Below are positions 8,657 to 51,174 of a stretch of DNA of 64,000 nucleotides, in pieces; positions within the stretch are counted from its first letter, which is position 1; every line of letters starts with the position of its first letter. The stretch covers positions 430,564 through 494,563 of the forward strand of contig NZ_KB235962.1 of NCBI RefSeq assembly GCF_000332355.1. The letters are read 5' to 3'. The position numbers and the translations under genes are program-made. This stretch comes from Baaleninema simplex PCC 7105. GTDB lineage: Bacteria; Cyanobacteriota; Cyanobacteriia; Cyanobacteriales; Geitlerinemataceae. The notes beneath the pieces are model-generated. The model did not search any database, was not told the origin of the DNA, and worked only from the letters and a program-made list of their open reading frames with translations.

Positions 8657-9040
8657 CTACGATCGGGCATCCTGTTCCCGAAGTCGTTCGAGTTCGCGAC
8701 GCAGTGTCGCTACTTGAGCTGTCAAATCTTGTAACTCCGCTTCTGTTCCCGTCGGAGCGGCGGTCGTTGGTGCGTTCGCACTCGTCGAAGTCGAGGCTGT
8801 CGTCGTTCCCCCAGAGGTCTGACCCATCAGGCTATCGACGAAATTGCGAGCCTCCTGTTCGGTCACTTCACCTTTGGCGGCTAACTTTTCTACAACCGCG
8901 TTCCAATCCTGCTGTTGGAACGTTTGCAGGTTCTCCTCTCGCTTCTGGGGATCTTGCAAACTCTCGATGGCGGAACTGGCCGCACCGATCGTCACGCGAA
9001 AACCAGTTTGGAGCGATTGCATTAACGTATCGGGATTCAT
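8657..9040 (-). CDS. Phasin-like coiled-coil protein
   Basis: 127 aa from the ATG at 9040 (a longer TTG-initiated frame reaches 9076). Layout: an N-terminal helix (LMQSLQTGFRVTIGAASSAIESL), a segment EVTEQEARNFVDSLMGQ that resembles phasin/PhaF-like proteins, a Thr/Ser/Ala-rich linker (about 80-100), and a C-terminal coiled coil (AELQDLTAQVATLRRELERLREQ). Phasin-like proteins bind polyhydroxyalkanoate granules, but many cyanobacterial members have no proven role, so the name describes shape only. Single gene. Confidence 0.6.
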   Translation of the reverse strand: MNPDTLMQSLQTGFRVTIGAASSAIESLQDPQKREENLQTFQQQDWNAVVEKLAAKGEVTEQEARNFVDSLMGQTSGGTTTASTSTSANAPTTAAPTGTEAELQDLTAQVATLRRELERLREQDARS

Positions 9041-9180
9041 AGGGTTCGTGTCCAGGGTTTTTAGTTGAGAGGGCAAAGACTGGCTTTATCTTAACAAAAT
9101 CGAGATTCCAGTTAAACCGATAATTTTGATAATGTCGAGTTTGAAATCTCTTTGTTGGGTTATTCGAGGAGTGTTTTATT

Positions 9181-9208
9181 CACCACAGAGACACAGAGGA
9201 CACAGAGA
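9181..9208. repeat. CACCACAGAGACACAGAGG repeat
   Basis: CACCACAGAGACACAGAGG plus ACACAGAG, one of three copies in the window (see 43154 and 62514). Confidence 0.8.
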
Positions 9209-9476
9209 GGGGCTTGTCTGGCTGGGTAAAACCAGTGTTTGAGATTCGGATTTCGTATAAAATTTAAAAATTCAACAATTGATTCTTAGAACCACTTTTG
9301 TATTTTTAAAATAGTTCTGTTATCTAAGTGGTGCAGAAAACTTTTCGAGATCTAGGATTGACAAAACACATACAATCTGTATTGAGATTCGAGCCAGATC
9401 TCCGGCAACCATTTACCGATCTGGGATTTGTATTTTTAATACAGTTCTGTTATAGCACAGCCCAGAGAAACGTTTC

Positions 9477-9646
9477 GGGTGCATCTCAAAAATGTAAATT
9501 CATCGAATTGGGCGCACTCAATTTCCAGATCCCCGGCATCTCCAAGATGCCGGGGATCTTATACCGGAAGTGCTAATCGGGAATTTTGCCACCCCAAACT
9601 GATGTTTTTGCAAAACTGATGTTTTTGCACTCATTGAGATGCACCC
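9477..9646. mobile_element. 170-bp MITE-like element with TIRs and 8-bp target duplication
   Basis: Perfect 13-bp terminal inverted repeats GGGTGCATCTCAA (9477-9489) and TTGAGATGCACCC (9634-9646). They are immediately flanked by an 8-bp direct repeat AACGTTTC (9469-9476 and 9647-9654), as expected for a target-site duplication. Inside are a perfect 15-bp stem with a 3-nt loop (9527-9559, AGATCCCCGGCATCT) and a tandem AAACTGATGTTTTTGC. No coding capacity, so it would need a transposase in trans. A lone copy of the 12-bp end sequence occurs at 50937-50948. Confidence 0.75.
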
Positions 9647-9676
9647 AACGTTTCCGAAAAAGTTTCAGCATTGAAA

Positions 9677-9705
9677 AACCCCGGTCTTGACTAAAAACCG
9701 GGGTT
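9677..9705 (-). terminator. thrS terminator
   Basis: Inverted repeat AACCCCGGT / ACCGGGGTT (9 bp, 11-nt loop), followed on the minus strand by a T-rich run. Lies about 25 bp past the thrS stop. Confidence 0.7.
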
Positions 9706-9728
9706 TCAAGATTCTCTTGATTTCGGCT

Positions 9729-11561
9729 TTAAAAATCGCCGCGAGATTCAATTGCTCCCGTTAATTTCTCGATCGCCTCGTCAACCGGCATCGAACCCAA
9801 TTCCCCAGACGCGCGAGTGCGGATACTCAAGCTATTGGCTTCCTGTTCTTTCGCACCGACGATCGCCATCACCGGAATTTTCGCTTTTTCGCCGTTGCGA
9901 ATTAGCTTTCCGAGGCGTTCGCCACTGGTATCGGCGGCGGCGCGAATTCCACTTTGTAACATTTTCGCCGCGACATCTTTGGCGAAGGGTAAAAATTCAT
10001 CGCTCACCGGCAGTAACCGCACCTGTTCCGGTGCCAGCCACAGGGGGAAATCGCCCGAATATTCTTCGATGAGAATGCCGATCAACCGTTCTAGGGAACC
10101 GAACGGCGCGCGGTGAATCATGACCGGACGTTGGCGAGAACCGTCTTCAGCGACGTATTCCAACTCGAAGCGTTCGGGTAGGTTGTAATCGACTTGTACC
10201 GTTCCCAACTGCCACTCCCGTTCGAGAGCGTCTTGGAAAATAAAGTCGAGTTTGGGACCGTAGAACGCGGCTTCGCCGGGAGCCTCGAAGTAACTCATGC
10301 CTTTAGCGTTCATGGCGTGGCGGATGGCGTCTTCGGCTTTGTCCCAGGCTTCGTCGGAACCGATGTATTTGTCGGAGGAGCGATCGCGGGTACTCAATCG
10401 CGCCTTAAACTGACGCAGGCGCAAACTCTCGAACACCGACAAAATTAAATCGACGACGTTGAGAAACTCCGTTTCCAGTTGGTCGGGGGTGACGAACAGG
10501 TGAGAATCGTCTTGGGTAAAGCCGCGAACTCGCGTCAATCCCCCCAGTTCTCCGGACTGTTCGTATCGGTAAACCGTACCAAACTCCGCGAGGCGCAACG
10601 GTAAATCGCGGTAAGAGCGCAGTTCGCTTTTATAAATCTGCACGTGGAACGGGCAGTTCATGGGTTTGAGGATGAATCCCTGTTCGGCGTGTAACGCCTC
10701 TTCGTCGTCCGCCATCAACGGGAACATATCCTCTTTATAGTTCTGCCAGTGTCCCGAGGTTTTAAACAAGTCCACTCGGGCGATGTGGGGGGTAACGACG
10801 CCGAAATAGCCCCGTTTTTGCTGTTCGTCTTTGAGGAAGTTTTCCAGGGTCGATCGCAGGATCGTGCCTTTCGGCGTCCACATGGGCAAACCGGGGCCGA
10901 CAGCATCAGAGAAGACGAACAGCCCCAGTTCTTTACCGACTTTGCGGTGATCCCGCTTGAGGGCTTCTTCTTTACGGCGTTTGTATTCCTTGAGTTGTTC
11001 GGGGGTTTCCCACGCCGTCCCGTAAATCCGTTGCAGTTGCGGGTTGTTGGCGTCGCCGCGCCAGTACGCCCCGGCAATGCTTTCGAGGTCGAAGGCTTTC
11101 GGGTGTAGATCCCCGGTGGTTTCGACGTGAGGACCGGCGCAGAGATCCCACCAGCGATCGCCTAAATGGTAAAGGGTAATGGGATCTTGTTTAATATCCC
11201 CGAGAATTTCCAGTTTGTAGGGTTCTTTAATCTCGGTGATGCGCTTTTCAGCTTCTTCTCGCGTCACCACTTCCCGAATCACGGGCAGTTTTTGCTTGAT
11301 AATTTTGACCATCTCTTTTTTGATGGCCTTGAGATCTTTTTCCGTAAACGGTTCCGGGCGATCGAAATCGTAGTAAAACCCGTATTCAGTCCACGGGCCG
11401 ATCGTGACTTGGGTTTCGGGAAACAACCGCTGTACCGCCATCGCCATGACGTGAGAGGCGGTGTGACGGATGCGTTTGAGCTTGTCCGATTCGCTGGTAC
11501 GGGGCAGGCGAATCGGTTGTTGTTCCACGGCTTCGGCTGATTGGGACGCTGAGGGTGACAT
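9729..11561 (-). CDS. thrS: Threonyl-tRNA synthetase
   Basis: 610 aa from ATG at 11561; the frame extends two codons further to a TTG. It charges tRNA-Thr. Order of parts: no N-terminal TGS domain (the sequence enters the editing domain after about 30 residues, as I recall for cyanobacterial enzymes), editing-domain motifs HTASHV near 34-39 and CAGPHV near 140, then the class II core with the zinc-binding MNCPFH near 300, motif 2 TVYRYEQSGEL and motif 3 MIHRAPFGSLERLIGILIE, and a C-terminal anticodon-binding domain. Monocistronic, with a terminator just downstream. Confidence 0.97.
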   Translation of the reverse strand: MSPSASQSAEAVEQQPIRLPRTSESDKLKRIRHTASHVMAMAVQRLFPETQVTIGPWTEYGFYYDFDRPEPFTEKDLKAIKKEMVKIIKQKLPVIREVVTREEAEKRITEIKEPYKLEILGDIKQDPITLYHLGDRWWDLCAGPHVETTGDLHPKAFDLESIAGAYWRGDANNPQLQRIYGTAWETPEQLKEYKRRKEEALKRDHRKVGKELGLFVFSDAVGPGLPMWTPKGTILRSTLENFLKDEQQKRGYFGVVTPHIARVDLFKTSGHWQNYKEDMFPLMADDEEALHAEQGFILKPMNCPFHVQIYKSELRSYRDLPLRLAEFGTVYRYEQSGELGGLTRVRGFTQDDSHLFVTPDQLETEFLNVVDLILSVFESLRLRQFKARLSTRDRSSDKYIGSDEAWDKAEDAIRHAMNAKGMSYFEAPGEAAFYGPKLDFIFQDALEREWQLGTVQVDYNLPERFELEYVAEDGSRQRPVMIHRAPFGSLERLIGILIEEYSGDFPLWLAPEQVRLLPVSDEFLPFAKDVAAKMLQSGIRAAADTSGERLGKLIRNGEKAKIPVMAIVGAKEQEANSLSIRTRASGELGSMPVDEAIEKLTGAIESRGDF

Positions 11562-50752: not shown

Positions 50753-51174
50753 AAAAAAATAAAAACCCTTTTCACAAACAAATCAAAAAAGATGTTTTTT
50801 AATAAAAAAAGGTTAAAAAACAATTGACTTTTGATTTGCTGCTAATTTTTTAAAATTATCTTATCTCAAAGTTTTCGGAGGGAAGGGAAAAAGCTAAACA
50901 GCATTCCCAAGCCTAACCTGAAAAAACTCTTCCCTCGGGTGCATCTCACTTTTGCGATCGGAACCCCACTCATCCTCCCCGTGAGCTAGGGGAGGTGCCA
51001 AAGGACGTTTGGCGAGCGCGGTTCGGCTGAGCGCTCACCGTCGAAGCCTCAGTCGAGGCGCGGAGGGGTCGTTCTACGAAATTGAAGATCGCTCCTTTCC
51101 TGTTCCCTGTTCCCTGTTCCCTGTTCCCTGTTCCCTGTTCCCTGTTCCCTGTTCCCTGTTCCCTGTTCCCTGTA
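50753..51174. other. Repeat-rich intergenic region
   Basis: No gene. From left: an AT-rich promoter region (50753-50870), a lone MITE-end sequence GGGTGCATCTCA (50937-50948), a CCTCCCC/GGGGAGG hairpin near 50976-50997, a palindrome-rich GC segment, and a heptamer array (51101-51170). Confidence 0.65.
51101..51170. repeat. TGTTCCC heptamer array, 10 copies
   Basis: Ten perfect head-to-tail copies of a 7-bp unit (TGTTCCC, on the minus strand GGGAACA). It stops 4 bp from the rpoZ stop codon. A degenerate unit (TTTCC) precedes it. The array can be read as direct repeats but has no spacers, so it is not CRISPR. Confidence 0.97.

Follow-up and report, generated by a model that had tools for sequence, protein, structure and literature searches.

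The gap that follows thrS in Baaleninema simplex PCC 7105 contains a short palindromic segment bounded by inverted repeats. The locus raises the question of whether this segment is a mobile element, which enzyme could have moved it, and whether its central hairpin belongs to it. The window, i.e., the whole 64,000-nucleotide stretch of DNA that was analyzed, corresponds to C8:430564-494563 of the host genome (G000; 6.15 Mb, 8 contigs). Positions 9477-9646 (forward strand) hold a 170-bp segment whose inverted ends are perfect over 13 bp, and copies of an 8-bp target-site duplication, AACGTTTC, adjoin it on the left (9469-9476) and on the right (9647-9654). Read across, the locus runs AACGTTTC / GGGTGCATCTCAA ... 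TTGAGATGCACCC / AACGTTTC, with the element between the target copies. Both features had been claimed in the original prediction and were borne out when the sequence was re-read, as was the perfect 15-bp stem-loop, which consists of two perfect 15-nt arms and a 3-nt loop at 9527-9559. The segment is thus short, carries no transposase gene and has perfect inverted ends, which are the features of a MITE. The 13 bp are the perfect part of a longer structure. The inverted repeat actually extends over about 27 bp, imperfect past base 12-13, with the left terminal repeat GGGTGCATCTCAAAAATGTAAATTCAT (27 bp) at 9477-9503 on the forward strand and the right one, GGGTGCATCTCAATGAGTGCAAAAACAT, of the 153/170 subtype, at 9619-9646 on the reverse strand. 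Alignment assigns the window copy to the 153-bp subtype, enlarged by one simple tandem duplication of 17 bp, in place of the mosaic of two end subtypes that was also considered. The subterminal unit AAACTGATGTTTTTGCA stands twice in tandem at 9596-9629 (forward strand), and this pair is found in the window MITE only, with no second occurrence genome-wide. Self-folding of the full-length element gives z = -8.4 compared with shuffles.

The full-genome search that had been proposed for further copies returned many of them. The genome contains the exact 13-mer 194 times and the control, the same letters reversed but not complemented, not once, so the recurrence of the 13-mer is not due to chance, and the 27-bp left end is found at approximately 165 genomic places with up to 3 mismatches. 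The copy number of the MITE in this genome is well over 100. Family statistics were drawn from 1.65 of the 6.15 Mb, comprising contiguous C8:1-400000 and stretches picked around known copies. In this sequence, 62 elements shorter than 400 bp have matching target duplications of 7-9 bp, perfect in 36 cases at 8 bp, in 19 at 9 bp and in one at 7 bp. None of the 19 duplications of 9 bp can also be read as 8 bp. The 8-bp duplication reported earlier stands for the window copy, and across the family the length is 8 or 9 bp. The size classes in the same 1.65 Mb are 87, 122, 128/129, 152/153 and 154 bp, plus a few others. Among 34 copies of the 152/153/170 type that were aligned, departures from the consensus concern chiefly the subtype of the end and the loop of the hairpin, and each copy carries few substitutions. 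Open frames of at least 250 codons cover 8% of the insertion points and 71% of random points.

Direct traces of mobility were obtained from empty sites. The flanks of each copy were joined and matched against the fetched 1.65 Mb, and the empty sites recovered in this way are paralogues. Six clean filled/empty pairs were found, with a flank identity of 98.7-100% and a single target copy in the empty allele: C8:161307 (filled, 152 bp) with C8:159606 (empty), C4:846517 (153 bp) with C4:850143, C4:1971405 (87 bp) with C4:1972413, C4:3580252 (122 bp) with C4:2102489, C6:127623 (122 bp) with C6:135519, and C4:2493811 (153 bp, itself within an 87-bp MITE) with C4:2496518. The empty site with a single target copy that the original prediction called for was therefore found for six other family copies, elsewhere in the same genome. 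For the window copy, no orthologous empty site was readable beyond thrS in five named relatives, because the nearest named relatives show no conservation of the region past thrS. The multiple genomic copies and the single-target empty sites at other family members support the MITE interpretation. The window segment is a real MITE, and its family has been recently active.

The stem-loop had been described as part of the segment. It is that, but the palindrome at 9527-9559 (AGATCCCCGGCATCT-CCA-AGATGCCGGGGATCT, 33 bp) is also dispersed separately, with 142 copies in the genome at up to 2 mismatches. One alternative is that the hairpin belongs integrally to the MITE and that its remaining copies are MITE remnants; 47 of 72 hairpins do have MITE flanks, in a sample partly chosen around MITE copies. 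However, the flanks are unrelated in 25 of the 72 hairpins in the sequence read and in 7 of 12 in contiguous C8:1-400000, so that about a third or more of the copies lie outside the MITE. Close palindromes were also found in 32 of the 119 related genomes searched, spanning 19 of 69 genera, and in several of these genomes without MITE ends. In G023, which represents another family of the same order, the hairpin forms the core of a MITE-like element of another kind, which has TATAGCARTCCTAAATGATTCGTGA ends. An integral hairpin is thus an unlikely reading, and dispersal of the palindrome as a unit of its own is the one that we infer. This MITE-like element of G023 (L289-L318, TATAGCARTCC ends) contains either a AGATCCCCGACTTCT...-type or a TGTAGGGACACGGCAGTGCCGTGTCCCTACA-type core palindrome, so that in some of its copies another palindrome occupies the position of the hairpin. 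In G002, another genus of the same family, elements with GGGTGCATCTCA ends are present (L239, L246). Two such elements contain the hairpin, one of them with both arms altered (AGAACCCC/GGGGTTCT), and one is 123 bp long with the target duplication CATAAAAT.

The palindrome itself varies in an ordered manner. Elsewhere, the stem usually reads GACTTC/GAAGTC in place of GGCATC/GATGCC, and therefore the arms change as a pair. In the MITE copies, each end subtype is found with either orientation of the 3-nt loop. All four combinations are present, which implies that the hairpin has inverted repeatedly or that copies have exchanged sequence. Very small dispersed hairpins in varied contexts, including minitransposons, and with paired stem changes have reportedly been described in Nostoc as SDR (Elhai et al. 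2008). By description rather than by sequence, the present palindrome resembles them, as it combines unrelated contexts with paired stem changes and in this sense is SDR-like. The Nostoc hairpins are said to be 21-27 nt in length, whereas the palindrome here has 33 bp. It is also, like REP/REPIN sequences (PMC3116915, PMC6006769), a short dispersed palindrome, but no GTAG-type tetranucleotide was seen adjoining the hairpin copies displayed. A literature search on the hairpin sequence returned only unrelated papers. Tentatively, the 33-bp palindrome may be regarded as an interchangeable core module, one that would spread by itself, sit at the center of two or more MITE families without relation to each other (the ISKra4 type here and the TATAGCARTCC type in G023) and be replaceable by TGTAGGGACACGGCAGTGCCGTGTCCCTACA. 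Such a module may aid folding or transposition.

The enzyme behind the MITE was sought through its ends. The ISKra4 transposase family (NCBIfam NF033572) has 50 matches in the genome. One of these, L044 (C4:1827898-1829075), scores above the cut-off and forms a 1178-bp element with the target duplication TGTTCGTG and the ends GGGTGCATCTCAGTTTTGCAAAAATAT and GGGTGCATCTCACTTTCGTAAAAACAC. These ends are identical to the right ends of 152- and 87-type MITEs at 23-26 of 27 bases. In an ungapped comparison, they match the left end of the window copy at 19/27 bases and its right end at 17/27, the latter being longer by one base. Terminal repeats are therefore common to the MITE and an ISKra4-family element of the same genome, most strongly for the 152 and 87 subtypes. 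The earlier statement that the parent is absent from the window agrees with this, since the element with matching ends sits elsewhere. Relatives in the ISKra4/ISMich2 group have target duplications of 8 or 9 bp and ends of 18-39 bp (PMC3942029). In the ISMich2 group (p-MULT 4, Guerillot et al. 2014), the transposase is encoded in two frames with a -1 frameshift (PMC3942029). The L044 transposase is likewise split over two frames. They overlap at a T9 run, which is what such a frameshift would lead one to expect, and the second frame has one in-frame stop. The system under study resembles these insertion sequences (ISs) in the end sequence of L044, in the 8/9-bp duplications and in its occurrence in Cyanobacteria (PMC3942029). 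It differs in that the MITE lacks a transposase gene and measures about one seventh of their length, and in that the best-matching copies in this genome are broken.

The likely source of the MITE is, judging from these ends, an ISKra4-family (ISMich2-like) element. Two further matches, L053 and L054, carry stops or are truncated. Five copies of a relative have identical scores and open frames, with GGGTGCATCCCA ends that differ by one base of the terminal repeat. Because the second frame of L044 contains a stop and the relatives with open frames end in GGGTGCATCCCA, the direct parent appears to have decayed within the sequence read. The intact GGGTGCATCCCA-ended copies share only 14-21 of 27 bases with the MITE ends; cross-mobilization of the MITE by them could nevertheless occur. 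No intact ISKra4 copy with an exact GGGTGCATCTCA end was found in the 1.65 of 6.15 Mb read base by base, and an intact parent with another internal sequence may exist given this coverage.

Two longer elements were considered as parents and rejected. L051 (C5:206982-208320, 1339 bp) was initially taken for the parent on account of outer ends that match those of the MITE. It is, however, a MITE into which a different ISKra4-family IS has inserted, 1174 bp long, with GGGAGCATCTA ends and the 9-bp duplication CTCGGAAAG; this IS recurs elsewhere without MITE ends. Similarly, C7:21050-22531 (1482 bp) is a MITE interrupted by an unrelated IS of approximately 1325 bp, whose 414-aa open frame resembles an IS4-type transposase and which also recurs without MITE ends. 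These elements bear on the alternative that the MITE ends derive from another transposase family and merely resemble ISKra4 ends. Both have MITE outer ends and carry other genes, and the exact MITE end is on no intact ISKra4 copy, as such an origin would have it. However, the genes belong to ISs that interrupt MITEs and recur without them, the ends of L044 match those of 152- and 87-type MITEs at 23-26/27 bases, and the 8/9-bp duplications are consistent with ISKra4. A different transposase family is therefore quite improbable. The element is very probably a gene-less, non-autonomous cut-and-paste MITE of the ISKra4 family, ISMich2-like group.

The surroundings of the MITE are themselves rich in repeats. 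The host ThrS has 93% identity to ThrS of Geitlerinema sp. BBD 1991-9, and the stretch from thrS to the next gene is made up of a CACAGAG-type repeat (approximately 9179-9258), a repeat termed family X (9321-9429) and the MITE. The first of these (9179-9258) contains CACAGAGACACAGAGGACACAGAG, and BLAST matched it approximately 40 times within the 1.65 Mb. Family X (CTMAGTGGTGCAGAAAACTTTTCGAGATC...) has further copies at C8:25896, C4:2966417, C3:173344, C4:1934235, C4:2076920 and C5:397032, and at C8:25853-26316 it is inserted within a 154-type MITE. Some family X copies contain the 33-bp hairpin, where the window copy and C5:397032 have AGATCT alone; a deletion between short direct repeats can also account for the copies that lack it. 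A lone GGGTGCATCTCAC at 50937-50949, whose partner was not seen, is possibly a MITE remnant. The original prediction placed the left target copy inside the second unit (9427-9476) of a direct duplication and concluded that the duplication was likely older than the insertion. The duplication comprises only 27 nt (9297-9323 and 9427-9453, 93%), and the sequence past 9323 is part of the other dispersed repeat. As the second unit ends at 9453, a gap of 15 bp separates it from the target copy at 9469-9476, and the argument on relative age fails. That the segment is an immobile stem-loop, a regulatory or terminator element travelling with the gene, is extremely improbable in spite of its strong fold (z -8.4) and its location directly past thrS, given the target duplications, the empty sites, which already refute this for the family, the lack of a terminator-like site within 9000-9760 and the lack of any Rfam family at gathering score for the element.

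For the preferred reading of an ISKra4-type MITE, the following history can be proposed. An ISKra4-type DDE transposase, the probable mobilizing enzyme on the evidence of the ends, would act in trans and recognize ends of approximately 27 bp of the type GGGTGCATCTCA-N-TTTTG-YAAAAA-YAT, and integration would duplicate 8 or 9 bp of the target. The central 33-bp hairpin, as a separate dispersed palindrome, would have been taken up by the MITE before a recent burst that scattered near-identical 152/153-bp copies, mainly in intergenic positions. The window copy inserted 83 bp past the end of thrS, and the 17-bp tandem duplication beside its right end may have arisen after landing or may already have been present in the source copy. 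Like the MITEs of Anabaena sp. 90 (PMC3542288), the family is short, palindromic, mainly intergenic and present in tens to hundreds of copies. Nezha, as it is cited in PMC10969869, is also short, palindromic, mainly intergenic and multicopy, a likeness by description and not by sequence. The Anabaena sp. 90 MITEs were classed as type II, with no matching-ended IS in that genome (PMC3542288), whereas a candidate parent family is present here.

The MITE itself is an ordinary element of a known type and is very well supported; the shared palindrome nested in it is the more unusual part. Studies of non-autonomous amplification would find a favorable subject in this family, since a single genome offers dozens of near-identical copies together with clean filled/empty pairs and a candidate parent. 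The recurrence of the palindrome core in unrelated MITEs across genera raises the question of whether such hairpins are parasites of MITEs, their cargo, or functional parts of them.
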